From positions 1 through 58,248 of the IMG/VR virus record IMGVR_UViG_3300021197_000769: a stretch of 58,248 bases of DNA. One strand, written 5' to 3'. Positions 40,687-52,926 of the stretch are shown here, in pieces. Positions within the stretch are counted from its first letter, which is position 1. Every line of letters starts with the position of its first letter. Both the position numbers and the translations under genes were made by a program. The notes beneath the pieces are model-generated. The model ran no database searches, was not told the origin of the DNA, and saw only the letters and a program-made list of their open reading frames with translations. This stretch comes from a virus.

Positions 40687-40734
40687 GTGACAATAGCCTG
40701 TTATTATATATACTTAATAACCTAACGTCACACT
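40687..40734 (-). promoter_or_regulatory. Long inverted-repeat operator candidate, copy 1
   Basis: Read leftward it begins AGTGTGAC-N2-TAG and ends TAACAGGCTA-N2-GTCAC, 48 bases in all, with an AT-rich middle. It is one of three copies (others 43013-43060 and 47957-48003). The arms GTGAC-N2-TAG and CTA-N2-GTCRC are mutually inverted. It faces the first late gene. Confidence 0.65.
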
Positions 40735-40833: not shown

Positions 40834-41026
40834 TTATACATATATTTTTTTACAAATTTTCAAAAAGGAAATGATTTTCATTTTACCCAGCCCCCCAGGT
40901 TTTTTCTGGATCGGCGTATATATACCGGGTTTTTACGATTTTCCTGCCACATATTTGAGTTTTTCTGGGGCAGCACACGACAGCGAGCGCAGCGAGCGGA
41001 GCGAAGCGGAGGGGGTGTATAGCACC

Positions 41027-41067
41027 GCAGACATAATACGTGGTTGACATGATAATAATAGTGTAAC
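41027..41067 (+). promoter_or_regulatory. Early promoter-like element P1
   Basis: GCAGACATAATACG is followed at exactly 23 bases by TGATAATA and then GTGTAAC. It is the first of nine copies and lies in tandem with P2, 79 bases upstream of it. Confidence 0.65.
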
Positions 41068-41105
41068 AAATGATAAGAATACGATCAATGTAAGTAAAGA
41101 ATTTC

Positions 41106-41146
41106 GCAGACAAAATACGTAGTGTATTTGATAATAATAGTGTAAG
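41106..41146 (+). promoter_or_regulatory. Early promoter-like element P2
   Basis: GCAGACAAAATACG is followed at 23 bases by TGATAATA. It lies 76 bases before the ATG at 41182. Confidence 0.7.
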
Positions 41147-41181
41147 TAAGTTAATAAGTTAATAATTAAATAATTAAAATT

Positions 41182-41520
41182 ATGAGTAATCAAGAGATCA
41201 TTGCAAAAGCAATAAGTAAGTTAAGTGACGAAGAGAAAGCCGTAATCTACCCACCAGTGTTCAGAAAGAACTTCGTAGTCCGCAAGAGTTGGATGGGACG
41301 TAACCAAGTAATAACATTCGACACTAAGCCGACTAAGACTAAGCCAAGTGTGCGAGTAACGTACAACCACGACGAGGTGTTGGAAGCGATGTTGCCGAGA
41401 CTCAACCTGATGCCATGCTGGGCAAAGCGAGAATACTGGTCACAGAGCACAGACATGCCGAGCACAGTAAAGCATCTGGGCAAGCGTGAAGCAATCGAAG
41501 CTGAGGTTACTGAAAAGTAA
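41182..41520 (+). CDS. Unknown early protein, 112 residues
   Basis: This is the first gene of the rightward arm, placed behind tandem elements P1 and P2. The protein is basic in the middle (KNFVVRKSWMGRNQ, about 29-42) and mixed at the ends, with one Cys. No family is recognised. Its DNA is clearly richer in G and C than neighbouring genes, suggesting different codon pressure or a more recent arrival. The leader AATAATTAAATAATTAAAATT before ATG is typical of the arm. Confidence 0.65.
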   Translation: MSNQEIIAKAISKLSDEEKAVIYPPVFRKNFVVRKSWMGRNQVITFDTKPTKTKPSVRVTYNHDEVLEAMLPRLNLMPCWAKREYWSQSTDMPSTVKHLGKREAIEAEVTEK

Positions 41521-41575
41521 TCTTAGCACCCCTCGGGGTACAATTAATCAAGTATATACCATTAAAATTAGACAA

Positions 41576-41923
41576 ATGGCAACAGAATTAAAGAAATTTG
41601 CAAGTGTAATGCCTGCAACGTCAACCACACCCTTTACAACCGTAGCAACCATGGGCCTGACAAGGTTCTCAGGAGGCTCAGCCGGGACAAAACTTCAGAT
41701 AACGATCCAAAACGGTGTTACCCAACACGGGATCACATGCACGACTCTGAATAGAGCACAGGTCAAAGACCTAGTAAAGACACTCCAAGAAGCTTTCGAG
41801 CTCACAGACGAGCCGGATGACGACCAGGACGAGGAAATCCTAAGCGACTGCTGCGGCGCGGACTCTTGGTGGAGCGACAGAAGCCTCTGCGGGGAGTGCC
41901 TTGAGCACGCGGACTTCACCTAA
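41576..41923 (+). CDS. Small protein with C-terminal zinc-ribbon motif
   Basis: Starting at ATG 41576 gives a 115-residue protein (an upstream in-frame ATG at 41486 overlaps the previous gene). Residues 1-70 form a Thr/Ser-rich beta part. The C-terminus has SDCCGADSWW and LCGECLEHADF, a CC...C-x2-C...H arrangement that fits a zinc ribbon seen in many small phage proteins. GC-rich like its neighbour. Nucleic-acid or protein binding is possible. Confidence 0.65.
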   Translation: MATELKKFASVMPATSTTPFTTVATMGLTRFSGGSAGTKLQITIQNGVTQHGITCTTLNRAQVKDLVKTLQEAFELTDEPDDDQDEEILSDCCGADSWWSDRSLCGECLEHADFT

Positions 41924-41948
41924 CCTGCAATATAGCCAGGGCTGTAGG

Positions 41949-41975
41949 CAACTGTTGCGATTTTTGCAACAGTTG
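41949..41975 (+). promoter_or_regulatory. Perfect 10-bp stem-loop
   Basis: CAACTGTTGC (41949-41958) pairs exactly with GCAACAGTTG (41966-41975) around the loop GATTTTT. It follows the zinc-ribbon gene by 25 bases and has no trailing T run, so it could be a processing or stability hairpin, a weak terminator or an operator. Confidence 0.5.
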
Positions 41976-42051
41976 AAATACGACCAGCGCGGAGCGCGGG
42001 GAGGGCAGCCGAAGGCTGTATAGCATATAGCATTTTCGGTATATATAGTTC

Positions 42052-42092
42052 GCAGACAAAATACGTAGTTATTATGATAATATATGTGTAAC
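42052..42092 (+). promoter_or_regulatory. Early promoter-like element P3
   Basis: GCAGACAAAATACG and TGATAATA are 23 bases apart (start to start), followed by ATGTGTAAC. It lies 72 bases upstream of the ATG at 42124. Confidence 0.7.
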
Positions 42093-42123
42093 AAAGTTAA
42101 TAATTAAACAAACAAAAAAAGTT

Positions 42124-42441
42124 ATGAAAAGTAATATGACATTAACACGGGAACAAGTAATAGCTATCGCGGATCGATTAGATGATGTAATCGGCGATCA
42201 CTTTTATGACTCTATTATAGCTGAGGTAGATGAAGAGATTGAAGACGCGGACGTATATGAAATAAAAAAAGAGTTAGCCCTAGGCTATCTAGAAGAATGT
42301 ACTAAATCCCAAAAACAAATAGAATATCGCTCCGATGTACTAGCGGAGATTGACAATCTAAACCAGTACTTAGCAGGTAATGTAACTAAGATGGGGTTGA
42401 TAGAGGGTCTAGAAGGATTGCTAAGAACAATAAGAAAATAG
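42124..42441 (+). CDS. Unknown acidic helical early protein, 105 residues
   Basis: The protein is mostly helical and acidic (about residues 25-50 carry EVDEEIEDADVYEIKKE). It has two Lys-rich ends and no Cys pair or membrane segment. No family is recognised. It has its own upstream element (P3) and is followed by a short GGGG...CCCC hairpin with five T (42451-42470), so it is probably a single-gene transcription unit. Met5 is an alternative start. Confidence 0.65.
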   Translation: MKSNMTLTREQVIAIADRLDDVIGDHFYDSIIAEVDEEIEDADVYEIKKELALGYLEECTKSQKQIEYRSDVLAEIDNLNQYLAGNVTKMGLIEGLEGLLRTIRK

Positions 42442-42450
42442 CAATATAAT

Positions 42451-42470
42451 GGGGTGAAACTCCCCTTTTT
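42451..42470 (+). terminator. Short hairpin terminator
   Basis: GGGG (42451-42454) pairs with CCCC (42462-42465) and is followed by five T. The stem is short, so termination may be partial. Confidence 0.5.
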
Positions 42471-42571
42471 CTCTAAATGCTATACGGTCTGGCCCTGCAA
42501 TAAGGTCGAAAGAGTAGACTCCGCTGCGCTCCGTGCTATATGCTATACGGTGAAAGCGGATCAATAGGTTC

Positions 42572-42612
42572 GCAGACAAAATACGTCACCTAAATGATAA
42601 TATATATGTAAC
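42572..42612 (+). promoter_or_regulatory. Early promoter-like element P4
   Basis: GCAGACAAAATACG and TGATAATA are 23 bases apart, followed by ATGTAAC. It lies 66 bases upstream of the ATG at 42638. Confidence 0.7.
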
Positions 42613-42637
42613 GAATAAATAACTAAATAAATAAAAA

Positions 42638-42820
42638 ATGGAAAATTCACTAAAGCACTACGGCTATTACGATGTACTCACTGTTGGTACCTTCAATCTC
42701 TATATAATGAACGAAAAATTCTATACGAAAGACGAGTTTATGAAGAAGATGTTCGGTGAAGAGTTTATGAATAGCGAAAACAAAGGAGAAAAGGTGCAAT
42801 ACGAAGATCTGGAAGGTTAA
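42638..42820 (+). CDS. Unknown small early protein, 60 residues
   Basis: The protein has an aromatic-rich N-terminal half (HYGYYDVLTVGTFNLYIMN, about 7-25) and a charged C-terminal helix. No family is recognised. It is flanked by P4 upstream and P5 just beyond its stop, so it is a one-gene cassette. Confidence 0.6.
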   Translation: MENSLKHYGYYDVLTVGTFNLYIMNEKFYTKDEFMKKMFGEEFMNSENKGEKVQYEDLEG

Positions 42821-42826
42821 CACCGT

Positions 42827-42867
42827 GCAGAAATAATACGTCACTGTAATGATAATATATGTGTAAC
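42827..42867 (+). promoter_or_regulatory. Early promoter-like element P5
   Basis: GCAGAAATAATACG and TGATAATA are 23 bases apart, followed by GTGTAAC. It lies 55 bases upstream of the ATG at 42882. Confidence 0.65.
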
Positions 42868-42881
42868 GAAAATTAAACAAA

Positions 42882-42977
42882 ATGAATTTAGAGGAAATTA
42901 GAGACGATATTGCAAATAGTGAGTTCGGTATGGATTACTGTCAACTCGGTGTACTAGAGAAAGAATGGGTAGATGAC
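42882..42977 (+). CDS. Tiny early ORF, 31 residues, possibly frameshifted
   Basis: The frame gives a 31-residue acidic peptide ending EKRMGR. If one A of the run at 42960-42963 were absent, it would continue as EKEWVDDEIDGCDF to a stop near 43002, acidic like the start and like other small proteins here. Either the short form is real, or there is a frameshift, a programmed slip or an assembly error. The 55-base distance to P5 supports the start. Confidence 0.45.
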
Positions 42978-43012
42978 GAGATCGACGGGTGCGATTTCTA
43001 ACCAAAAAAACT

Positions 43013-43060
43013 GCGACGATAGCCTGTTATATTATTAACTTAATAAGCTAATGTCACACT
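43013..43060 (-). promoter_or_regulatory. Long inverted-repeat operator candidate, copy 2
   Basis: It matches copy 1 closely: read leftward AGTGTGAC-N2-TAG, an AT-rich middle, then TAACAGGCTA-N2-GTCGC, 48 bases. It lies between two early cassettes, with P6 about 90 bases to the right. Confidence 0.65.
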
Positions 43061-43149
43061 TTTCCAAAGGTTAAACAGAGAGAGAGTGTGTGTTATCTAA
43101 ACACTATTATTTGAAGGTATTTTTATACTGAAATATAGTTACACTCTTT

Positions 43150-43188
43150 GCAGACAAAAAACGTTACTGAATTGATAATAAATATGAA
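43150..43188 (+). promoter_or_regulatory. Early promoter-like element P6
   Basis: GCAGACAAAAAACG and TGATAATA are 23 bases apart. It decides the start of the next gene, because the spacing of 54-58 bases seen for P5, P7, P8 and P9 points to ATG 43205. Confidence 0.7.
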
Positions 43189-43204
43189 TTTAAAATTTAA
43201 TAGA

Positions 43205-43387
43205 ATGAAGGAGTTAGAAAGTAGATTAGAGGACTTTGATTGGTGGTTCAATATGGCTGACGATTTTAGCAAGTACAAGGCGGGGAATGCGGAATACACT
43301 CGACTTAGAGAGTACATGAAGACCTTACCAGATCAAGAAGCGGTCGATGACCTCTACAATAAACATTGTCCTTGGGGTAAAGAGTAA
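43205..43387 (+). CDS. Unknown small early protein, 60 residues
   Basis: With ATG 43205 the protein is 60 residues, helical and charged, with WWFNMADDFSKYK in the middle and HCPWGKE at the end. An upstream in-frame ATG at 43184 would lie at the edge of the promoter-like element, and earlier TTG reading runs through it, so 43205 is preferred. No family is recognised. Confidence 0.6.
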   Translation: MKELESRLEDFDWWFNMADDFSKYKAGNAEYTRLREYMKTLPDQEAVDDLYNKHCPWGKE

Positions 43388-43592
43388 AAACGATGTCTTA
43401 CAAAAGTCGGTAATAAAAGCCGCAGGTGAAAGCTACCTACCTACTATGCAAGTGGTAGCTGAAATAACACGAAATCTGGTGTTATGGATTAACAAACAGT
43501 ACATACAGGGAGTTATTAACTTCCGGAGGTTATGGTAGTAAATACTACTGGGATAGTATTTATGAGGGGTTCGATTCCCCTTGCTTCCACTA
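43388..43592 (+). ncRNA. Structured RNA with a tRNA/tmRNA-like 3' end
   Basis: The stretch contains five strong stems: 43431-43437/43454-43460 (7 bp), 43464-43470/43479-43485 (7 bp), 43517-43522/43527-43532 (6 bp, CCGG loop), 43539-43547/43554-43562 (9 bp) and a T arm 43565-43569/43577-43581 with loop TTCGATT. TGCTTCC (43582-43588) plus A and CTA resemble an acceptor end. GGGAGTT at 43508 could pair with it (6 of 7, two G-U). The D and anticodon arms are aberrant, so it is not a standard tRNA. A tmRNA fragment or tRNA mimic is possible. Confidence 0.5.
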
Positions 43593-43612
43593 AAATTAAT
43601 AAATAAATAACT

Positions 43613-44185
43613 ATGAAAAAGATTAAAAAAGTAAGTGAGCAGCAGAGTTGCCAATACACCACTACGTACAAAGTAGACTATGGTATGTTTCAAGTAGATG
43701 TAGAGGTGTACTCAGATGAATTTGAAATAGCGGATTTAAGTAACAAGCTATTTTCGTGTGAAATTCAGGATGTGGGGTTTGAGTTTAGTATAAACGGCAA
43801 ACGATGCAAATATGAAGGATTTAAAGAGCTATATAACAAGCTACACGGTGAAGGTTCTTACCTTGATTTAAACAAAGAATTAGCTGACTATATAGAAGTG
43901 CAGCACCAAAATCTATCTGATAGACCCTATGTACAGAATCTTAGCGTTGACAAAGCAACTGAGTATCTTTCAGAATTACTAACTGACTCTACTTATGCAA
44001 CAGGTACAACTATGTTAGGCAATAAGGAAATAGTATACACAGATAAATGGGCTATTATAGAACTAGCTAAAATTGCAGAACCTAATAAAGTCCATCTAGT
44101 AAAGTGCAAACGAACTAATTGCTCTTCAGGCAAGGAGTATGCTCACTCTATATTCGATCTAAGCGAATACTTTGTTGGCGAATAA
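43613..44185 (+). CDS. Unknown protein, 190 residues
   Basis: The N-terminal half is beta-rich (YKVDYGMFQVDVEVYSDEFE, about 20-39), the C-terminal half is helical, and a basic CKRTNCSSGK patch lies near 164-173. No membrane segment and no clear family. It is the largest of the early cassette proteins and follows the structured RNA by 20 bases. P7 begins just after its stop. Confidence 0.65.
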   Translation: MKKIKKVSEQQSCQYTTTYKVDYGMFQVDVEVYSDEFEIADLSNKLFSCEIQDVGFEFSINGKRCKYEGFKELYNKLHGEGSYLDLNKELADYIEVQHQNLSDRPYVQNLSVDKATEYLSELLTDSTYATGTTMLGNKEIVYTDKWAIIELAKIAEPNKVHLVKCKRTNCSSGKEYAHSIFDLSEYFVGE

Positions 44186-44191
44186 TCGGTT

Positions 44192-44232
44192 GCAGATTAA
44201 ATACGGCACCGCAATGATAATAAATATGTAAC
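44192..44232 (+). promoter_or_regulatory. Early promoter-like element P7
   Basis: GCAGATTAAATACG and TGATAATA are 23 bases apart, followed by ATGTAAC. It lies 56 bases upstream of the ATG at 44248. Confidence 0.65.
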
Positions 44233-44247
44233 AAATAATAAATAAAA

Positions 44248-44397
44248 ATGGGATTAACAAAAGAATACGTAGAAGAGCTAGTTAATATTTCGGATCCTGA
44301 TGGCGTCTGGGCAATGATGCAAGGTCTAGAAATGTGGGAGGAGGTCGAATATATTGAAGAAAAATACTTTAATAATAATGAAACAAATAATAATTAA
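44248..44397 (+). CDS. Small acidic early protein, 49 residues
   Basis: The product is acidic and helical, with DPDGVWAMMQGLEMWEEVEY in the middle and an Asn-rich end. No family is recognised. The Asn-rich tail is encoded by part of a leader sequence (TGAAACAAATAATAATTAA) that is repeated exactly before the gene at 44664, so the tail may reflect that duplication. Confidence 0.55.
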   Translation: MGLTKEYVEELVNISDPDGVWAMMQGLEMWEEVEYIEEKYFNNNETNNN

Positions 44398-44414
44398 ATA
44401 CTATGAAAAATAAA
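44379..44414 (+). repeat. Duplicated leader, copy 1
   Basis: A 36-base segment running from TGAAACAAATAATAATTAAA through the start codon and first codons (ATGAAAAATAAA) is identical to 44640-44675. Each copy is the leader and start of a gene. Confidence 0.75.
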
Positions 44415-44642
44415 TCAGATCTATGGAGTCCATATCAAAAAGCTGATATTTTAGCAGGTAACATGTTTGGTGAAATGGGATTATTCTCATTAAGAGACGA
44501 CCAATTAGATCAGATCATAGATCTAAAGAAAGCAGATAAATTGGCTAAGAAACAGTTTGGTGAGTTTGGATTTAAAACTTTAGCTGTAAAAGAAATGGAA
44601 GAGCTGATTGATAATAATTCTAAACTACTACGAGTTAGTTGA
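44403..44642 (+). CDS. Small protein with an internal duplication, 79 residues
   Basis: The protein contains two copies of a motif of about 27 residues: KADILAGNMFGEMGLFSL...DQIID (about 13-40) and KADKLAKKQFGEFGFKTL...EELID (about 43-70). This points to two similar helix-turn units. No family is recognised. It starts in the first of two identical leaders and is followed by a gene starting in the second. Confidence 0.6.
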   Translation: MKNKSDLWSPYQKADILAGNMFGEMGLFSLRDDQLDQIIDLKKADKLAKKQFGEFGFKTLAVKEMEELIDNNSKLLRVS

Positions 44643-44675
44643 AACAAATAATAATTAAATACTATGAAAAATAAA
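44640..44675 (+). repeat. Duplicated leader, copy 2
   Basis: Identical to 44379-44414, including the start codon and first codons of the following gene. It probably arose by duplication of a leader-gene cassette. Confidence 0.75.
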
Positions 44676-44918
44676 AAACACAATGGTTACTTTAACTACG
44701 AAACGTGGCGAGTAATGCTAGAGATATTAGGAGACATCGAATGGGATGCTGATGAAGAAGTAACTGCAGATCTTCTTGAAGAAATTGTAAACGACGTTGT
44801 CTTCAACAATACAGTTGAAAAAGATTGTCTCGCTGCTAGCTATGCAAGATCCTTCTTGTCTAACGTAAACTACTACGAATTAGCTGAAACAATAAACGAA
44901 GATAGAGTTGCAGACTAA
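44664..44918 (+). CDS. Small NYETW-motif protein (DUF7249-like), 84 residues
   Basis: The N-terminus NGYFNYETWRVML (about 7-19) is a hallmark of a small family found in phages and plasmids; the DUF7249 name is from memory. The remainder is acidic and helical with a Cys near 53. Function is unknown. P8 overlaps its stop codon, so the next cassette begins immediately. Confidence 0.6.
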   Translation: MKNKKHNGYFNYETWRVMLEILGDIEWDADEEVTADLLEEIVNDVVFNNTVEKDCLAASYARSFLSNVNYYELAETINEDRVAD

Positions 44919-44949
44919 ATACGCAAACTTATTGATAATATATATGAAC
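44910..44949 (+). promoter_or_regulatory. Early promoter-like element P8
   Basis: GCAGACTAAATACG overlaps the previous stop codon and is followed at 23 bases by TGATAATA. It lies 58 bases upstream of the ATG at 44968. Confidence 0.7.
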
Positions 44950-44967
44950 ATTAAATAATTAAATACT

Positions 44968-45204
44968 ATGAAACAAACAGAAATGAATGTAATATTAGCT
45001 CAGCTAAAAACTACACATATGATGGATCAAGCTATGGACGGCTCACACAGTGCTGAGTGGGCAATGAGAAAGTTCGAACCACTACTTGAAATAGGTTACT
45101 CCTATGAAGACATTGCTACCTATGTTGCAATTAAATTACAAGAACTCACAATTAAAGACGAAAGTTTTGCTAAAGATAGACCAAGATATAATGAAGATAA
45201 ATAA
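44968..45204 (+). CDS. Unknown early protein, 78 residues
   Basis: This is a helical protein rich in Met in the first third (MMDQAMDGSHSAEWAM, about 17-32) with a C-terminal charged tail. No family is recognised. It overlaps the next gene by 14 bases and starts a longer co-transcribed group running to about 46551. Confidence 0.6.
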   Translation: MKQTEMNVILAQLKTTHMMDQAMDGSHSAEWAMRKFEPLLEIGYSYEDIATYVAIKLQELTIKDESFAKDRPRYNEDK

Positions 45205-45448
45205 CCTAAAAAGCTTTGTCGGTACTAATATATTTAGTATCACATTTACCAAGAAAGATGGATCAACACGTAAAATGGTCGCTAGGCTGGGAGTAAAATC
45301 CCACCTACGTGGCGGCACAAAAAAGTTCTCTGATGAAGAGCGAGATCTAATAACCGTATTCGATATGAATAACAGAGGTTACCGATCATTCAAAACCACA
45401 AACGTGATTAACCTAAAATGTAACGGAATAACAATTAATTTTAAATAA
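45191..45448 (+). CDS. SH3-like beta-barrel phage protein, 85 residues
   Basis: Starting at ATG 45191 (not the longer frame from 45104), the protein has FSITFTKKDGSTRKMVARLGVKSHLRG... followed by LITVFDMNNRGYRSF. This matches a small phage family described as an SH3 beta-barrel fold protein, from memory. It is about the normal length. The role is unknown; possibly nucleic-acid or protein binding. Confidence 0.65.
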   Translation: MKINNLKSFVGTNIFSITFTKKDGSTRKMVARLGVKSHLRGGTKKFSDEERDLITVFDMNNRGYRSFKTTNVINLKCNGITINFK

Positions 45449-45455
45449 TAATACC

Positions 45456-45830
45456 ATGCAAAAGACTAGAGAAGAAATAGAAAAAAGATTAGCTCAGATT
45501 GATGTGTTTATTACTGAATCAGATATTAGTACAAAAAGACATAATAATGAGAAAGCAATGTTAATCAATGAGTTACAAGATATAAACAAACCAGTGATTG
45601 ATGATGAGATACTAGACCAGATATATGAGGTGATACAAAATCACATGGAAGATATAAACGAAATAGAACCTTGCGACTGTGAGTTTAATTTCGAAATAGA
45701 CCGCGATAATATGGTATATGTTGATTCAATGCAAGTACTAAAGAATCAAGATTATTTTGCTGAATCACTATATAATGACCTTAAAACTTTATTCAAAGTA
45801 AACAAAGAAGAAGATGAAGGTAGCGTTTAA
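45456..45830 (+). CDS. Unknown acidic protein, 124 residues
   Basis: An N-terminal coiled coil (about 3-45) precedes an acidic part with a CDCEFNFEID segment (about 73-82). No known family. It overlaps the next gene by 17 bases, which supports coupled translation. Confidence 0.6.
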   Translation: MQKTREEIEKRLAQIDVFITESDISTKRHNNEKAMLINELQDINKPVIDDEILDQIYEVIQNHMEDINEIEPCDCEFNFEIDRDNMVYVDSMQVLKNQDYFAESLYNDLKTLFKVNKEEDEGSV

Positions 45831-45999
45831 TCAAGACACAATAGATTATTTTGCTACTAAAGCTGAGTACCTTGAAGATTCATTAAGAGATGAAATACAG
45901 TTATTTGTAGAAGAGAACTGTCAACCAGAAGGAATAGAAACGTACGAAGACATAGCTGAAGAATTATATAACCAAGTAACACAAAATAAAAATGTATAA
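45814..45999 (+). CDS. Unknown small acidic protein, 61 residues
   Basis: The protein is acidic and helical (about 30% Glu, Asp and Gln), with no membrane segment or Cys pair. It overlaps both neighbours (17 and 8 bases), fitting a compact polycistronic unit. No family is recognised. Confidence 0.6.
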   Translation: MKVAFNQDTIDYFATKAEYLEDSLRDEIQLFVEENCQPEGIETYEDIAEELYNQVTQNKNV

Positions 46000-46213
46000 C
46001 GAAAAGAAAACATGGGTATTTTATGGTGCAAATAATAATGGTGATATAATTATCCACTTTATAAAAGACTGTAAGATCCCACACAAAACAAAAGAACAAG
46101 CAACTATGCTACAATTACTAAACGACGATGTATACTGGGCTATAGGTTACGAGACATCCTCTAATTGGAATTTATATAACCGTCAAAATATATCTAACAT
46201 AAGAACATTATGA
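45992..46213 (+). CDS. Unknown small protein, 73 residues
   Basis: The N-terminal half is beta-rich with aromatic residues (TWVFYGANNNGDIIIHF, about 7-23), the C-terminal half polar with Trp and Asn. It overlaps the DnaA-domain gene by 4 bases (ATGA). No family is recognised. Confidence 0.6.
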   Translation: MYNEKKTWVFYGANNNGDIIIHFIKDCKIPHKTKEQATMLQLLNDDVYWAIGYETSSNWNLYNRQNISNIRTL

Positions 46214-46551
46214 ATAAAGAAAAACAAATATTAAATACCGTGTTATATATGGTATGCACATATTACGGAGTAGAACCAGATGACGTTAAAGGAAAGAGTA
46301 GAGAGCGGCACTTAGTAATTGCAAGACAAGTATACTGCCACTTAGCGAGAACATATACTAGATCCACATTTAAACAGATAGGTTCTATTATAAACAGGGA
46401 TCATGCAACCGTAATCCATAGTAATAATCTAACTAAAGTTTTATCTACTATAGAGAAAAAAACAGCATACGATATTCGATCTATTATACAATTAAATCCT
46501 GAAATAAAAGAATTGTTTCAAATTGGGAATGCTATGCTATACACTATATAA
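46210..46551 (+). CDS. Stand-alone DnaA domain IV-like protein, 113 residues
   Basis: The protein carries the DnaA C-terminal DNA-binding signature INRDHATVIHS (residues 61-71), preceded by helices typical of domain IV (RERHLVIARQVYCHLARTYT, about 31-50). It has no AAA+ ATPase part. Such small proteins could bind origin DNA, recruit or block host DnaA, or regulate transcription. It overlaps its upstream neighbour by 4 bases, and P9 starts 9 bases after its stop. Confidence 0.8.
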   Translation: MNKEKQILNTVLYMVCTYYGVEPDDVKGKSRERHLVIARQVYCHLARTYTRSTFKQIGSIINRDHATVIHSNNLTKVLSTIEKKTAYDIRSIIQLNPEIKELFQIGNAMLYTI

Positions 46552-46559
46552 GATCGGTT

Positions 46560-46597
46560 GCAGACAAAATACGATCTAATATTGATAATAATAATGA
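46560..46597 (+). promoter_or_regulatory. Early promoter-like element P9
   Basis: GCAGACAAAATACG and TGATAATA are 23 bases apart. It lies 54 bases upstream of the ATG at 46614 and is the last of the nine copies. Confidence 0.7.
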
Positions 46598-46613
46598 ATA
46601 TAAATTAAATCTA

Positions 46614-47105
46614 ATGAATATATTTTACCTACACAAAGATCCTGTGCAAGCTGCTAACATTCAGTACAATAAGCACGTTGTTAAAATGATACTTGAGTCC
46701 GCTCAAATGCTATCTACTGCTCACCACCACTATGCTGAAACCTTAGGCTACGATGCTACTTATATACCATATAAAAAAGCACATTACAACCACCCATCCT
46801 CTATATGGGCACGAGAAAATAGCAGACAATACTATTGGTTATTCAATCATATGTTAGCCCTCGGTAATGAGTATACAAAAAGATATGGCAAAATACACTT
46901 AAGTATTCAAAAATGTTTCGCATCTTTACAGAACTGTCCAGTTGGCATGCCTCTTGGCGGATCCTTTTCAGAGCCTCCACAGTGTATGCCTGATGAATAT
47001 AAAGTACCAAACGATAGTGTTCAAGCTTACTGGAATTATTACATTGGTGATAAACACTCAGTAGCTAATAAAGATGAAAAAATATTTACTAAAAACCCAT
47101 TTTAG
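46614..47105 (+). CDS. Pyrimidine-dimer glycosylase-like (Pyr_excise) protein
   Basis: The 163-residue protein begins MNIFYLHKDPVQAANIQYNK and continues HVVKMILESAQMLSTA, the opening seen in small phage proteins annotated as pyrimidine dimer DNA glycosylases. Two Cys, several His and many aromatics follow. If the family call is right it would act on UV-damaged DNA, useful in surface waters. Function is unproven; it could be a related protein without glycosylase activity. Confidence 0.6.
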   Translation: MNIFYLHKDPVQAANIQYNKHVVKMILESAQMLSTAHHHYAETLGYDATYIPYKKAHYNHPSSIWARENSRQYYWLFNHMLALGNEYTKRYGKIHLSIQKCFASLQNCPVGMPLGGSFSEPPQCMPDEYKVPNDSVQAYWNYYIGDKHSVANKDEKIFTKNPF

Positions 47106-47106
47106 A

Positions 47107-47391
47107 ATGACTGAAAAACAAATGAGACAACTAACTGAAATGATTATTGAAGCAATAGACAATAAACAACGTGAGTTAGATAAAGAATTCTATGCTAATA
47201 TAGATAACCGTGTAGATATTGCGTATAGTCCACACCCTTTAGAACAAACAATGTCTGAAAATGAGCGGGTGCTAAATAAGCTGCATGAACTTTATAGTAT
47301 GCAATTAACCTTGATATCAGAAGAAAAGTTTGAGCTAGCAGAAGAAATTAAACAAACAATAAAAGCAGTTAAAGAAAATTATAAGTTATGA
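47107..47391 (+). CDS. Unknown coiled-coil protein, 94 residues
   Basis: Starting at ATG 47107, just after the previous stop, gives 94 residues (the frame is open from 47074). Helices at 1-35 and 50-94 have heptad-like Leu/Ile spacing. No family is recognised. It overlaps the following gene by 4 bases. Confidence 0.6.
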   Translation: MTEKQMRQLTEMIIEAIDNKQRELDKEFYANIDNRVDIAYSPHPLEQTMSENERVLNKLHELYSMQLTLISEEKFELAEEIKQTIKAVKENYKL

Positions 47392-47594
47392 GAAAATTTA
47401 ATAGATATAAACAAAATTTAACAAGAATTGGTAATGATATATATTCTTACGACACACATGTAGCTGAGATAAAAGACGACAAGTTATATAAATTAAGATG
47501 GAGAGTAAGAGGTATGTCTTCAAGCCCAACAACCTCAAAGCATATTAATTATGTTGCTAATGAATTAAACTTAACTATAATAGATTATGATTAA
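47388..47594 (+). CDS. Unknown small basic protein, 68 residues
   Basis: The protein is basic and beta/turn-rich (KLRWRVRGMSSSPTT, about 34-48). It overlaps both neighbours slightly. No family is recognised. Confidence 0.55.
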   Translation: MRKFNRYKQNLTRIGNDIYSYDTHVAEIKDDKLYKLRWRVRGMSSSPTTSKHINYVANELNLTIIDYD

Positions 47595-47739
47595 ATTTAT
47601 GATATATAATAATGACGAAGTAACATTTATACTTAAAGAGTCATTAGATGAAGCTAAGCAATTTGCAATAATGTACTGTGATCATTCTCACGAGATCATA
47701 GTCAGACAAGTAAACGATATTAAATACATCGGATTTTAA
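47587..47739 (+). CDS. Unknown small protein, 50 residues
   Basis: A 50-residue frame with mixed helical pattern and a CDHSHE patch (about 31-36). It overlaps the stop of the previous gene by 8 bases and its own stop overlaps the next ATG by one base (TAATG), which supports real coupled translation. No family is recognised. Confidence 0.55.
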   Translation: MIKFMIYNNDEVTFILKESLDEAKQFAIMYCDHSHEIIVRQVNDIKYIGF

Positions 47740-47924
47740 TGAAAAGTATAATTATGAAAAATAAAAAGTATTGCAGGGTAAGACATCATATATGGTTTTT
47801 AGAAAATCGTATAAAAGAATTAAAATATATTATTCTGAATGGTGCAATAAATCATAAGATAATGTTTACTGAAATAATGTTATTTAAAAAATATAATCGA
47901 AGATTATCTTTAATAAAAATGTAA
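47739..47924 (+). CDS. Unknown small basic protein, 61 residues
   Basis: A Lys/Arg-rich helical protein with no Cys pair or membrane segment. Met6 is an alternative start. It ends a run of overlapping small genes; a perfect 8-bp hairpin (47928-47947) follows. Confidence 0.55.
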   Translation: MKSIIMKNKKYCRVRHHIWFLENRIKELKYIILNGAINHKIMFTEIMLFKKYNRRLSLIKM

Positions 47925-47927
47925 ACA

Positions 47928-47947
47928 AACAATATAAAAATATTGTT
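47928..47947 (+). terminator. AT-rich hairpin after the small-gene run
   Basis: AACAATAT (47928-47935) and ATATTGTT (47940-47947) pair perfectly around AAAA. There is no T run, so termination would be weak. It sits just before inverted-repeat copy 3. Confidence 0.35.
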
Positions 47948-47956
47948 ACAATAAAA

Positions 47957-48003
47957 AGTGTGACAATAGGTATTATATATAAAGAGTAACAGGCTAATGT
48001 CGC
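47957..48003 (+). promoter_or_regulatory. Long inverted-repeat operator candidate, copy 3
   Basis: It has the same layout as copies 1 and 2 but in plus orientation: AGTGTGAC-N2-TAG, AT-rich middle, TAACAGGCTA-N2-GTCGC, 47 bases. The start codon of the HTH gene (47997) lies inside the right arm, which is a strong layout for autoregulation. Confidence 0.65.
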
Positions 48004-48617
48004 ATGAAAGAAACCTCGATTATTTAAATCGAAGACGTATAATTTACAGGAGGCATCCAATAACAGATGAACCAACAACAGTCTATGACTGGGGTATGTA
48101 CTACGAGAATGGCACATATGAGTGTTTTGAATTATTTAGAACAGATGCAAAGATTAATACGTTTAAGTCTCTTAAATGGCATTTATTAGTGTTATGGTAT
48201 CTCAACTCTGACATGGATCAAGATGAGTTAAATAGTTTAGCAAAATTTATTTGTATTAAATCAAATGGTTTTGTTACATTTGAAGTGTCAGAATATATTC
48301 TAAAGAATATTATATATGAAGTTAGCATGTGTGATTTAGATATACAGCCTAAAAATAAGATTAGAAAGATAATCTTTAAACCATTCTGTGGATTAACTAA
48401 AAAAGAAAAGTTAAGTATAGTTGGCAAAATGATAGGTAGAAGTAAACAAATAAATCAAGATAATATATATGAATGTATGCTGGAGATTAACGATAATAAA
48501 AATAAAATAACAATAACTGGCCTTGCAAAGATGTTATCTTGCAGTACAAGAACGATCTATAGGACTATGAGTAATGAGTTAAAAAAAGAAAAAGAACTAT
48601 TAAATCAGGGATTATAG
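47997..48617 (+). CDS. Putative HTH transcription regulator, 206 residues
   Basis: The C-terminus has an HTH-like segment (ITGLAKMLSCSTRTIYRTMS, about 172-191), with an acidic or hydrophobic start, turn and recognition helix rich in Arg/Thr, followed by a charged tail. The N-terminal 150 residues are unassigned. The start codon overlaps inverted-repeat copy 3, suggesting the protein binds these repeats and controls itself, the late gene start at 40611 and the early cassettes. Family is not recognised; the link to the repeats is inference. Confidence 0.65.
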   Translation: MSHERNLDYLNRRRIIYRRHPITDEPTTVYDWGMYYENGTYECFELFRTDAKINTFKSLKWHLLVLWYLNSDMDQDELNSLAKFICIKSNGFVTFEVSEYILKNIIYEVSMCDLDIQPKNKIRKIIFKPFCGLTKKEKLSIVGKMIGRSKQINQDNIYECMLEINDNKNKITITGLAKMLSCSTRTIYRTMSNELKKEKELLNQGL

Positions 48618-48626
48618 ATTGAGTCT

Positions 48627-48648
48627 GGCTATGTTATAATTAATAGCC
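48627..48648 (+). promoter_or_regulatory. Hairpin over the ribosome-entry region of the sigma gene
   Basis: GGCTAT (48627-48632) pairs with ATAGCC (48643-48648), ending two bases before the ATG at 48651. It could limit translation of the sigma factor. Confidence 0.45.
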
Positions 48649-48650
48649 CT

Positions 48651-49406
48651 ATGAAAAAATACAGTGTAACAAATTACATTCGGTACAAAGAAGATTTAAA
48701 AAAATCTATGCCAGACGATAAACTATGGAATGAATATAGTAGAGATGAAATGATAATAAAGTTCTTACCTTTAGTAGAAAATTTAGCAAGAAAGTTTGCT
48801 ACATCACAGCAAGCTAGTGGTATACTAACTATAAATGATCTTATACAGATCGGGTCTGAAGCTTTAATCAGAGCAACAGATAAGTTAGATTACAACAAGC
48901 TTAATGAATCTGAAGATATTGAAAAGACTTTAAAGTCATTTCTTAGTAAAAGAATTAAAGGAGCAATTAGACGTAGAATAGATATGAATAGTGGAGGAAT
49001 TAAAATACCAGAGCATAAAAGAAGTCAGATGCGAAAAAATCCAGATGATAAAAGTATGGTACAGATGTTTTTTAATTCTATATTCTTAAGTATCGATGCC
49101 GTAAATATGGATGAAGATGGTAACACACTATACCATAATATAGTTGACAAGTCAGAACCATATAATATTAATATATTAAATGCTTATTTGAAAGGATTAA
49201 TGCAGAAACATTTAACAATAAATGAATATCAAGTATTACGATTATCTTATGGACTAGACTGTGAGAAGCACTCGGCTAAAGAGATAGCTCATATATTAGG
49301 GCTTAAAGGTATCAGTAATCACGTAAGAGTTTCAGAGCTAAAGAAACAAGCAGTTAATTCACTTGTAGATAAAGTTGATCACGAGCAAGTTATTGATTAT
49401 TTATAA
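48651..49406 (+). CDS. Phage-encoded sigma-70-family factor
   Basis: The 251-residue protein has a region 2 (about 40-115) with VENLARKFA, the core-binding motif INDLIQIGSEALIRATDK and KSFLSKRIKGAIRRRID. It also has a region 4 (about 185-240) with YQVLRLSYGLD and the HTH SAKEIAHILG...VRVSELKKQAV. Region 1.1 and a normal region 3 are missing. It would redirect host RNA polymerase to phage promoters, most likely those of the late arm, since no phage RNA polymerase is seen. A hairpin covers the translation start region. Confidence 0.85.
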   Translation: MKKYSVTNYIRYKEDLKKSMPDDKLWNEYSRDEMIIKFLPLVENLARKFATSQQASGILTINDLIQIGSEALIRATDKLDYNKLNESEDIEKTLKSFLSKRIKGAIRRRIDMNSGGIKIPEHKRSQMRKNPDDKSMVQMFFNSIFLSIDAVNMDEDGNTLYHNIVDKSEPYNINILNAYLKGLMQKHLTINEYQVLRLSYGLDCEKHSAKEIAHILGLKGISNHVRVSELKKQAVNSLVDKVDHEQVIDYL

Positions 49407-49436
49407 TTGATAATTCAAATAAAATAACTAAATTTG
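49407..49436 (+). promoter_or_regulatory. Bacteroidetes host-type promoter
   Basis: TTG (49407-49409), 19 bases, then TAAATTTG (49429-49436) match the Bacteroidetes primary sigma consensus TTG-N19-21-TAnnTTTG. It lies in front of the ERF gene (ATG 49461) and would start transcription near 49443. It lacks the GCAGAC element. Confidence 0.7.
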
Positions 49437-49460
49437 TAAACAATAATAAATTATATATCC

Positions 49461-50003
49461 ATGAAATTAAATGAGAAACTGGCAACTGTCCAGACTAAGT
49501 TCAAATCCAAAAAGAGTAGATATAATTCTTTTGGCAAGTATTACTTCAGATCTGCTGAAGACATTTTAGAAGCAACAAAACCATTCCTATTGGACCTCGG
49601 CGTTTCTGTTGTAGTAAAAGAAACTTTAATAAGTACTGACCCATTCCCTGTATTAGAAGTAACTGCAACAATATCAGATGGTAGTGATGCTATACACTCA
49701 AGTGCTATTGTTGGTATCGATCTTGTTCAAAAAGGTATGCAAATGCCTCAAAAGTTTGGTAGTGCTTCATCATATGGCAAAAAATATGCTTTAGGTAATT
49801 TATTTTTAATAGATGACACTGCAGATAGTGATGCTAGCAATACTCACGATAAAAGCAGCTCTACTAAAGCATCCTTAAGTACAACTAAAGATCCTGCATT
49901 TGCTAAAGCAAAAGAATACATAAAATCAGGTGGTAAAATTGAGGCAATCAAAGCTAAATATTCTTTGTCTAAAGAAGTTGAATCGGAACTAACAACCCTA
50001 TAA
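49461..50003 (+). CDS. ERF-family single-strand annealing protein
   Basis: The 180-residue protein matches the ERF family: an N-terminal segment with YNSFGKYYFRSAEDI (about 21-35), a central core and the hallmark GSASSYGKKYALGNLFLIDD (about 107-126). The C-terminus is Ser/Lys-rich. ERF proteins anneal complementary strands and pair with exonucleases in phage recombination; an exonuclease and an SSB gene follow at once. A host-type promoter lies upstream. Confidence 0.85.
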   Translation: MKLNEKLATVQTKFKSKKSRYNSFGKYYFRSAEDILEATKPFLLDLGVSVVVKETLISTDPFPVLEVTATISDGSDAIHSSAIVGIDLVQKGMQMPQKFGSASSYGKKYALGNLFLIDDTADSDASNTHDKSSSTKASLSTTKDPAFAKAKEYIKSGGKIEAIKAKYSLSKEVESELTTL

Positions 50004-50004
50004 T

Positions 50005-50742
50005 ATGGACAAGAAAAATAAAAAAGAAATACTTAAACGTCTACAAAACGACGAAGATTACTATGGAGACTTCGGTAAACAATTCTTAAGTAACTCTAAT
50101 ATAAGTACTTTAATGAATAACCCTCTTGCTTTAGGCAATGACATAATTAAGTCAAACGCTTTGGTAATAGGTAGTTACTTCCACGTAGCAATACTTGAAC
50201 CAGATAAACTTAAGAAGTTTAAAATTATCGACGCTACCACTAGGAATACTAAGGCTTATAAAGAATTATCTGGAGGCGAGATATGCTTATTACAACACGA
50301 GGTAGATAAGATAGACCTTATGATTGAAAAAGTTTTAGAAAACGATGTGTGTACTAGCTTAATTCGTGGTAATGTTGATTATGAAGTGCCTGGTATAACG
50401 GAAATAGAAGGTAATTTTTGGAAAGGTAAAGCTGATATACTTAATCACGATGATAAACTTATAATAGACTTAAAAACTACTGGGGATATTAATTCATTCC
50501 AATATAGTGCTAAAAAATATAACTACGACAGTCAAGCTTACATATATAAACATATCTTTGGATATGATATGATTTTCTTAGTTGTAGATAAAACAACTCA
50601 TCAGATAGGTTTATTTGATTGCTCAGAAGCTTTTTATGAAAGAGGCTATAATAAAGTTATAGCAGCTAGCAATATTTACGATCTATTTTATAAAACAGAA
50701 GATTTTGAACCAAAACAATTCTTTATATCAAAAACTTTGTAA
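50005..50742 (+). CDS. RecE/exonuclease VIII-like PD-(D/E)XK nuclease
   Basis: The 245-residue protein carries GKADIL (about 138-143), IIDLKTTG (about 151-158) and SQAYIYKH (about 171-178), matching the PD-(D/E)XK-type exonuclease motifs D...D-x-K...Q-x-x-x-Y. It starts one base after the ERF stop. It probably makes 3' single strands for ERF to anneal. Confidence 0.8.
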   Translation: MDKKNKKEILKRLQNDEDYYGDFGKQFLSNSNISTLMNNPLALGNDIIKSNALVIGSYFHVAILEPDKLKKFKIIDATTRNTKAYKELSGGEICLLQHEVDKIDLMIEKVLENDVCTSLIRGNVDYEVPGITEIEGNFWKGKADILNHDDKLIIDLKTTGDINSFQYSAKKYNYDSQAYIYKHIFGYDMIFLVVDKTTHQIGLFDCSEAFYERGYNKVIAASNIYDLFYKTEDFEPKQFFISKTL

Positions 50743-50780
50743 CTTTAACCCCTTAATATAAATTAAAAACAATTAAAATT

Positions 50781-51098
50781 ATGGCATCAATTATTAATGC
50801 AAGTATCAATTTAAATAATATTGATAAAAGTAAAATCATCGAAGGTAAGAAAGGTAAGTACTTACCAATAAGTATTGTTATAAACGATGAAGTAGATCAG
50901 TTTGGTAATCAAGGACCAATAACGATTGCTCAGTCCAAGGAAGAGCGTGAAGCTAAATCAGCTAAGACTTATTTAGGTAATGTAAAAGTTGTTTGGACTA
51001 ATGGTGATAATGTAGCTGCGGCTCCTAGAGAAGGTCAACAAGCACCTGCTCCTGCAAGACAGTCTGCTCCAGCTCCATCAGATGATCTACCATTCTAA
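50781..51098 (+). CDS. Single-stranded DNA-binding protein with SSB-type C-terminal tip
   Basis: The 105-residue product has a beta-rich N-terminal domain (about 1-72), a Pro/Ala/Gln-rich linker and the acidic-hydrophobic tip SDDLPF. That tip matches the DDIPF motif by which SSBs recruit partner enzymes. It follows ERF and the nuclease, completing a recombination set. OB-fold membership is inferred from layout. Confidence 0.75.
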   Translation: MASIINASINLNNIDKSKIIEGKKGKYLPISIVINDEVDQFGNQGPITIAQSKEEREAKSAKTYLGNVKVVWTNGDNVAAAPREGQQAPAPARQSAPAPSDDLPF

Positions 51099-51193
51099 TG
51101 ACAGTTTGCGAATTATGCGGAGATGATATGATTCAAAGTGATTATGACTTCTCCGATATATGTATAAATTGTTTAGAAGACTCAGATTATTAA
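51098..51193 (+). CDS. Tiny zinc-ribbon protein, 31 residues
   Basis: The ATG overlaps the SSB stop by one base (TAATG). The 31-residue peptide has CELC (4-7) and CINC (22-25), a zinc-ribbon pair of C-x2-C motifs, in an otherwise acidic context. It may bind nucleic acid or a partner protein. The overlap and conserved Cys spacing support it being real. Confidence 0.6.
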   Translation: MTVCELCGDDMIQSDYDFSDICINCLEDSDY

Positions 51194-51210
51194 TACTTAA
51201 ATTAAATTAA

Positions 51211-52926
51211 ATGAATATAGAACATACGGAAATTAATGGTTTCCAGATTGATAAGTTTAACCAGTATGATCTTGAAGCGGGTAAAACACAGGGGAGTTGT
51301 CCTCTGTGTTCCGCCAATAGAAAAGCTAAAAACCAAAAAGCTAAGTGTGCTAGCTATGATTGGGAGCGTGGACTTGGAACTTGTCATAATTGCAATAGTA
51401 GTTTTCAATTACATACCTATAAGCGTAAAGGCAAAGCTGAAAAAGTATACTTAAAGCCTGAACCTTACGTGCTACAAACACCTGGAACTAAAGTTGAGGA
51501 GTGGTTTAAAAAAAGAGGTATATCTAAGAAAACACTAGAAGATCTTAAGATTAATGAAGGCACAGAATTTATGCCGCAGACTGGTAAAACAGAAAACGTT
51601 ATTAAGTTCAATTACTTTATGGGTGGGGAGTTAACCAACATTAAGTCTAGAGATGGTAGAAAGAATTTTAAATTACATAAAGGAGCTGAAAAAATATTTT
51701 ATAATATTGATAGTATAATAGGTCATCCTGAATGTATTATAGTAGAAGGTGAGATGGACGTCTTAGCACTACACGAAGCTGGTATAACTAACGCAATATC
51801 AGTGCCTAATGGAGCAACGCTCAACAATAACAATTTAGATTACTTAGACTCTTGTATTGATTACTTTGAGGATAAAGAAAAAATAATATTAGCAGTAGAT
51901 TCTGATGAAGCCGGGCAAGCCTTACAAAAGGAATTAGTTAGAAGGCTTGGTGCTGAGATCTGTTATCTAGCTACTTTTGATGACTGCAAAGATGCTAATG
52001 AATATTTATTAAAATATGATAAAGATAAACTCGCTAATAGGATTAGAAAAGCTTCGCCTGTTCCGCTTGAAAATGTTACTACATTTAAAGATATTGAAGA
52101 TGATATTACGGATTTTGTACGTAACGGTTTTAAACCTGGATTTCAAATCGGCTTACCAAATTTTGATAGCATATTCTCAACTTATACTGGTCAGTTTATT
52201 ACTGTCACTGGCATACCTTCTTCCGGGAAATCTGATTTTGTCGACCAAATGGTTGTGGGATATAATAAAAATTATGGATGGAAGACGGCTTTTGCTTCGC
52301 CAGAGAATCAACCTACTTATTTGCATGCACATAAGCTAATGAGAAAAACTTGGGAGGGTATGCCTTCTGCTACAGATATTGGAGGGGATAAATGGGAACA
52401 AGTAGCGGATCATTGCAATAGTAATTATTTTCATATAGATATGGAGAAGTATACTTTAGAATCTGTATTACGCAAGGGGGCTGAGCTAGTAAAGCGGAAA
52501 GGAATTAAATGTTTAGTTATTGACCCGTTTAATAAAGTAAGAGATGTTGACTGCAAGACAGAAGATGTTAATAGATATACTATGGAATATCTAATGAAGA
52601 TTGAAATTTTTGCTAAGAAATATGATGTACTTGTTTTTATTGTTGCTCACCCAACTAAGATGTACAAAGATAAAGATGGTAAAATTGAAGAACCTACAAT
52701 GTATAACATTAAGGGTGGTGGTGAATGGTATGATGCTAGCTATCATGGGCTGTTGGTGCATAGAGATTACGAAGCTAAAACTGTTAAAGTAAAAGTTTTA
52801 AAAATAAAGTTTCAAAACCTTGGTGAGAATGGGGCATCGGCTAATTTTACTTGGGAGCCAAATTCTGGATGTTATGTTCCACACATATCAGATACAGTTG
52901 TTAATGAACCTATGCCCTGGGAATAA
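51211..52926 (+). CDS. Bifunctional primase-helicase (T7 gp4/Twinkle-like)
   Basis: The 571-residue protein has an N-terminal zinc finger (Cys30, Cys33, Cys58, Cys61), a TOPRIM primase domain with IIVEGEMDVLALHEAG (about 177-192) and LAVDSDEAGQAL (about 225-236), and a RecA-type helicase with Walker A GIPSSGKS (about 334) and Walker B CLVIDPF (about 432). This order equals T7 gp4. It unwinds and primes at the fork; no DNA polymerase gene is in the window. Confidence 0.9.
   Translation: MNIEHTEINGFQIDKFNQYDLEAGKTQGSCPLCSANRKAKNQKAKCASYDWERGLGTCHNCNSSFQLHTYKRKGKAEKVYLKPEPYVLQTPGTKVEEWFKKRGISKKTLEDLKINEGTEFMPQTGKTENVIKFNYFMGGELTNIKSRDGRKNFKLHKGAEKIFYNIDSIIGHPECIIVEGEMDVLALHEAGITNAISVPNGATLNNNNLDYLDSCIDYFEDKEKIILAVDSDEAGQALQKELVRRLGAEICYLATFDDCKDANEYLLKYDKDKLANRIRKASPVPLENVTTFKDIEDDITDFVRNGFKPGFQIGLPNFDSIFSTYTGQFITVTGIPSSGKSDFVDQMVVGYNKNYGWKTAFASPENQPTYLHAHKLMRKTWEGMPSATDIGGDKWEQVADHCNSNYFHIDMEKYTLESVLRKGAELVKRKGIKCLVIDPFNKVRDVDCKTEDVNRYTMEYLMKIEIFAKKYDVLVFIVAHPTKMYKDKDGKIEEPTMYNIKGGGEWYDASYHGLLVHRDYEAKTVKVKVLKIKFQNLGENGASANFTWEPNSGCYVPHISDTVVNEPMPWE

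Follow-up and report, generated by a model that had tools for sequence, protein, structure and literature searches.

Putative promoters repeated in a Bacteroidota-type phage and the divergent phage sigma factor proposed to read them

We showed by sequence comparison that a promoter-like element and a divergent sigma-70-family factor encoded by the same phages diverge together between phage lineages. Nine copies of the element are present in the window (the whole stretch of viral DNA analysed, 58,248 bases; the source virus record has the same length). It is quite probable that these copies act as promoters of the small-gene region and that the host core RNA polymerase reads them with the phage sigma factor encoded at 48651-49406.

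The phage and its nine sites

The phage is of the Bacteroidota type and podovirus-like, and its hosts are marine Bacteroidota-type bacteria. Its terminase shares 65% identity with that of MW202828 (uncultured, "complete genome") and about 45% with those of Flavobacterium elemo phages; further relatives infect Cellulophaga, Tenacibaculum and Maribacter, and a Crassvirales muzzle-protein domain is present. The phage collection contained no near nucleotide relatives of the window, and its searches with the sigma and helix-turn-helix (HTH) proteins gave no matches. The minus-strand arm encodes the portal, terminase and virion proteins and GroEL, while the plus-strand arm carries the nine sites, small genes, the sigma factor, an ERF recombinase, a primase-helicase, thymidylate synthase and ribonucleotide reductase. 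A 2601-aa protein (450-8255, minus strand) contains an HExxH-like stretch (AAHEFLHALL) and has no family match; still larger proteins are encoded near the ends of the late arm of elemoF and MW202828.

A pattern search of all 58,248 bases (both strands, up to three mismatches) recovered nine plus-strand GCAGACAAAATACG-N9-TGATAATA sites and no further match on either strand, and dinucleotide shuffles of the window yielded 0 matches. The sites are as follows:

41027..41057, plus strand: putative promoter site 1; one mismatch; in tandem with site 2; matrix score far above the shuffled maximum
41106..41136, plus strand: putative promoter site 2; exact; before ORF 41182-41520
42052..42082, plus strand: putative promoter site 3; exact; before ORF 42124-42441
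42572..42602, plus strand: putative promoter site 4; exact; before ORF 42638-42820
42827..42857, plus strand: putative promoter site 5; two mismatches; before short ORF 42882-43001
43150..43180, plus strand: putative promoter site 6; one mismatch; before ORF 43184 or 43205-43387
44192..44222, plus strand: putative promoter site 7; two mismatches; before ORF 44248-44397
44910..44940, plus strand: putative promoter site 8; one mismatch; before ORF 44968-45204
46560..46590, plus strand: putative promoter site 9; exact; before ORF 46614-47105; heads the unit toward the HTH and sigma genes

All nine starts listed in the first-pass annotation were therefore recovered, each with the exact 23-base start-to-start spacing claimed there, and both pattern and matrix searches confirmed that the late arm is free of copies. 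Equally good matches scattered through coding regions, which had been named as grounds for doubting the element, are absent from the window. The motif search proposed in the same annotation was run de novo on 40900-47000 with no prior, and returned seven sites (seven requested) as its top motif.

Other details had to be revised. The shared box GCAGACAAAATACG is exact in four of the nine copies and carries one or two changes in the remainder. The trailing "TATGTGTAAC", described as usual, is exact only at 42052 and 42827; TGTAAC follows the site in five copies and TGTAAG in one. A distance of 54-76 bases to the start codon applies to most sites, but not to 41027, which has no gene of its own and lies 79 b before site 41106, nor to 43150, with possible starts 34 or 55 b downstream. 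The quoted consensus captured a promoter-type element, but the true motif is wider (GCAG becomes ACAA, CGAA or others in relatives). The suggested division of the small genes into cassettes is supported insofar as the sites precede gene groups. GC-rich stretches ending in TATAGCA/TGCTATA strings were also observed in AT-rich surroundings directly upstream of sites 1, 3 and 4 (40960-41020, 41985-42040 and 42510-42560, respectively).

Distribution and placement in related phages

A degenerate pattern detected other IMG/VR contigs with 1 to 9 sites per record. When a matrix built from the window sites was refined per clade, most relatives were found to contain 6-9 sites, clustered together on a single strand. 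Generalised, the consensus reads TTACARACaaAATACG-N10-GATAATATAATAAA, of which C1, A2 and GATAATA are nearly invariant, the near-invariance of GATAATA being partly due to the detection threshold. Lineages of the window, G007 and G001 have GCAG or ACAG in place of ACAA, and the -35 part of L228, L244 and L226 reads TTCGAAAC. No prior description of this motif was found in literature searches.

The placement of the sites is that of promoters. Across 86 sigma sequences (84 IMG/VR loci, some of them near-duplicates, plus the window and G001; about 1.5 Mb), the sigma gene has 404 sites on its upstream side and 8 on its downstream side, while the opposite strand has 0. Only 6 of the 344 distinct sites (1.7%) are located inside ORFs, compared with 193 of 344 random positions (56%), and 69% have a start codon 15-70 nt downstream (12.5% of random positions); GATAATA and the next ATG are separated by a median of 32 nt. 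On the strength of this placement we take the nine sites as members of a promoter family shared across these phages. The ACARAC block would constitute the -35 region and xGATAATA the -10 region, and transcription would start about 12-14 b past the G of GATAATA. If GATAAT or TAATAT is taken as the -10, the start would fall near element position 36-38, with ACARAC at about -35.

Recognition by a phage RNA polymerase, either virion-packaged (crAss-like) or single-subunit (T7-like), is highly unlikely. Distant crAss relatives carry a virion polymerase, the muzzle domain points to a distant relationship with such phages, and some copies of the element contain TAATACG, as in the T7 promoter. However, no polymerase was found in the window: its large proteins have no polymerase match and the 2601-aa protein has no DxDxD, although parts of the genome may be missing from the record. 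The spacing of -35 and -10 fits recognition by a sigma factor, and AATACG was lost in several lineages while GATAATA was kept. The T7-like identity was rejected, as TAATACG is not conserved in relatives and no such polymerase was found.

The candidate sigma factor

The first-pass annotation had guessed that a specific factor may be needed; a candidate that co-varies with the motif is encoded in the same arm:

48651..49406, plus strand: predicted phage sigma-70-family factor, 251 aa (phrog_351, E 3.4e-20; family matches, fold match, co-variation)

Matches to Pfam Sigma70_r2 (22.7 bits; curated cut-off 24), Sigma70_r4 (16.8; 24.1) and TIGR02937 (41.7; 42.9) are just or somewhat below the cut-offs, and the two Pfam regions occur in the right order along the protein. 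The best-scoring named family is FliA/WhiG (TIGR02479), but with 42.7 bits against a cut-off of 189.6 the protein falls outside this (sigma-28) subfamily; the nearest PDB sequence is sigma-28 of entry 1rp3. The 50 Foldseek matches listed for the predicted model (E 7.6e-6 to 2e-4) are all RNA polymerase structure chains, which are sigma-A wherever a name is given; sigma-A chains of initiation complexes are among them. The TM-scores are low (0.28-0.36), which means that single domains match and not the whole arrangement, and the AlphaFold model itself is only moderate (pLDDT 77, pTM 0.47). Judged from these matches, the protein is likely a divergent sigma-70-family factor, and we propose it as the reader of the nine sites.

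Sigma gene and motif occur together. Among the 54 sigma loci for which 8 kb or more of upstream DNA is available, 53 have two or more sites, and when contigs were collected by motif first, 24 of 34 encoded the sigma factor. Six of the ten sigma-less contigs were read whole; five of them are site-rich and end inside or near the cluster, so that the sigma region is missing, and these five also have no primase-helicase gene. The 83.7-kb contig G055 (no TerL, single site) was rejected as a motif carrier and represents a chance match. Neither sigma (by profile search) nor motif is present in the outgroups, whose terminases are 65% and 45% identical. Even a barely recognisable sigma (G044, profile E 5.6e-15) is accompanied by its own version of the motif, GTACACAACAA-N13-GTGATAATATA, in which the ACA + GATAATA register is that of the window and the upstream box is changed. 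A phage sigma gene is present in genomes that carry the motif, a logic like that of SPO1. The exception is L179/L180, whose sigma is 71% identical to that of the window, with no recognisable motif in 9 kb upstream. A different repeat was observed in the right arm of the sigma-less MW202828 (L037/L038; about 43600-52000), where many copies of the perfect palindrome GTGTCGTTAACGACAC occur, often directly before start codons.

Co-variation of sigma factor and promoter

In 33 phages whose sigmas are non-redundant, distances between promoter matrices were compared with distances of five nearby proteins. Distances in the -35 part correlate with those of sigma (r 0.57), and the partial correlation given the other four proteins is 0.44 (0/1000 permutations). 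For the PD-(D/E)XK protein the partial value is 0.18 (p 0.06), and for the HTH, ERF and primase-helicase proteins there is no correlation with the -35 part in these 33 phages. The base preceding GATAATA behaves in the same way as the -35 part (partial r with sigma 0.45, 0/1000 permutations), while the spacer control gave 0.14. Omission of the window lineage or of any single phage changed the result little. Permutation tests do not fully remove phylogeny, for which the other proteins serve as a control; moreover, the HTH gene lies nearer the motif cluster than the sigma gene, and physical linkage therefore does not explain the co-variation. These comparisons show, at the sequence level, that sigma factor and promoter diverge in step from one phage lineage to the next.

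Within a genome, 91% of sites agree in the base before GATAATA (shuffled labels would give 48%), whereas between genomes this base may be A, C, G or T (T in the window). Most spacer positions do not behave like this private base, which makes recent copying of promoters an unlikely cause. None of the single sigma residues considered accounts for the private base. An association at column 184 of the HTH protein (z 6.8) was also rejected: the position lies before the HTH, and the whole-protein distance gave a null result. One contig (IMGVR_UViG_3300047157_000162, 129,537 b; L187 and L238) contains two sigma-promoter regions with differing private bases (mostly C, and A in 10/10), and is either a joined assembly or a double phage.

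Bacteroidota have an unusual primary sigma factor and promoter. It might be supposed that the sites are early promoters of this host sigma alone and that the phage sigma serves other (later) genes, since the genes concerned precede the sigma gene, in the arm that is usually the first to be expressed, and phage early promoters often use the host holoenzyme. Part of the sites have TAnnnnTG after GATAATA, loosely like TAnnTTTG. We consider this improbable. The expected host class is that of the Bacteroidota sigma-A promoters (TTG, TAnnTTTG), the -7 box of which is absent from the nine sites: none contains a plus-strand TAnnTTTG, so the difference from the host consensus noted in the annotation is real. 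The element is also unlike the six classes of promoter motif that have been mapped in Flavobacterium psychrophilum, which comprise sigma-A variants, sigma-54 and ECF promoters. Furthermore, the motif divergence tracks the phage sigma, which is not expected of a host-read promoter, and the late arm, in the part searched, yielded no second promoter class that this sigma might serve (indeed no distinct motif, only coding-like repeats). Scans of the window for TAnnTTTG (77 found, 83 expected) and for E. coli sigma-70 promoters (85 found, 85.6 expected; uninformative) gave no excess.

The HTH gene and a possible positive loop

Next to the sigma gene lies an HTH gene, and inverted repeats are found at three positions:

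47997..48617, plus strand: predicted helix-turn-helix protein, 206 aa (HTH_11, E 9e-5, just below cut-off); adjoins sigma
40687..40731, no strand assigned: inverted repeat of 45 b ahead of the first promoter; possible operator
43013..43057, no strand assigned: second inverted-repeat copy
47960..48003, no strand assigned: third inverted-repeat copy, overlapping the start of the HTH gene

A homologue of the HTH gene is present in 77 of the 86 sigma loci, and in many relatives its stop overlaps the sigma start. The inverted repeat (44-46 b, GTGACAWTAGCC...GGCTAWTGTCAC) was observed in 72/86 loci, usually with one copy that sits 34-42 b ahead of the HTH gene and overlaps its start codon, and a second 210-430 b ahead of the first promoter site. 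It may be the operator on which the HTH protein acts, or an RNA hairpin that hides the HTH start codon. A second, single-copy promoter-like element (TGTAAAAC-N12-TGTGTAATTATA) occurs in 66 relatives between sigma and ERF, about 780 b past the sigma start; at the same place in the window (49407-49436) a host-type TTG-N19-TAAATTTG precedes the ERF gene instead.

The proximity of an HTH gene to a repeated element might suggest that the nine sites bind a repressor, an activator or a partition-type protein and are not promoters. This is very doubtful: the element is not palindromic, occurs in a single orientation and lies close to start codons, and the HTH protein, which does not co-vary with it, has a candidate palindromic element of its own.

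Under the preferred reading, recognition by the phage sigma factor, the host core RNA polymerase would carry the 251-aa protein to the nine sites. The unit that starts at 46560 runs through 46614-47924 and continues into the HTH and sigma genes; no other site intervenes. Since sigma would lie at the end of this unit, and the HTH and sigma genes overlap in many relatives, a positive loop in which sigma boosts its own expression is plausible; the first sigma would then have to be supplied by leak, by a host promoter or by the virion. Should the phage sigma be required, the sites would become active only after its synthesis (delayed-early or middle), except where the protein is injected or arises by leakage from a host promoter.

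Comparison with known systems and significance

SPO1 (gp28/gp34) and T4 (gp55) provide known examples of phage sigma factors with cognate promoters. The proposed system resembles them in that a phage sigma-type factor would redirect the host core polymerase to phage promoters of shared sequence; it differs in the host phylum and in a promoter sequence that is different and lineage-specific, and its sigma dependence is a prediction from sequence. The nearest known promoter core is the sigma-28 consensus -10, GCCGATAA. The complete sigma-28 (FliA/WhiG) promoter, TAAAGTTT-n11-GCCGATAA, shares with our sites GATAA in the -10 and a -35 block at a similar distance, but GCC before GATAA is replaced by the lineage-specific base and the -35 is ACARAC, not TAAA; with GCC and TAAA absent, the sites fall outside this class.

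We give about even chances to the proposal that the sigma-promoter pairs within a large family of marine Bacteroidota-type phages are evolving and mutually distinct. Each phage would employ one divergent sigma and about 5-12 matching promoters, and the -35 box and the base before GATAATA would make up a lineage-private code that possibly separates the transcription of co-infecting phages. A sigma-dependent phage promoter class for Bacteroidota has not been described in the literature searched, and while the principle of a phage sigma with cognate promoters is already known, a lineage-private code in Bacteroidota-type phages appears to be undescribed.

At least 281 relatives of the phage sigma were detected, many of which adjoin their promoters and form a natural data set on changes of sigma/promoter specificity. 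If confirmed, the pairs could serve as orthogonal parts for gene expression in Bacteroidota, and transcription units in uncultured phages could be predicted from them. Each lineage of these viruses seems to have a gene switch private to itself.
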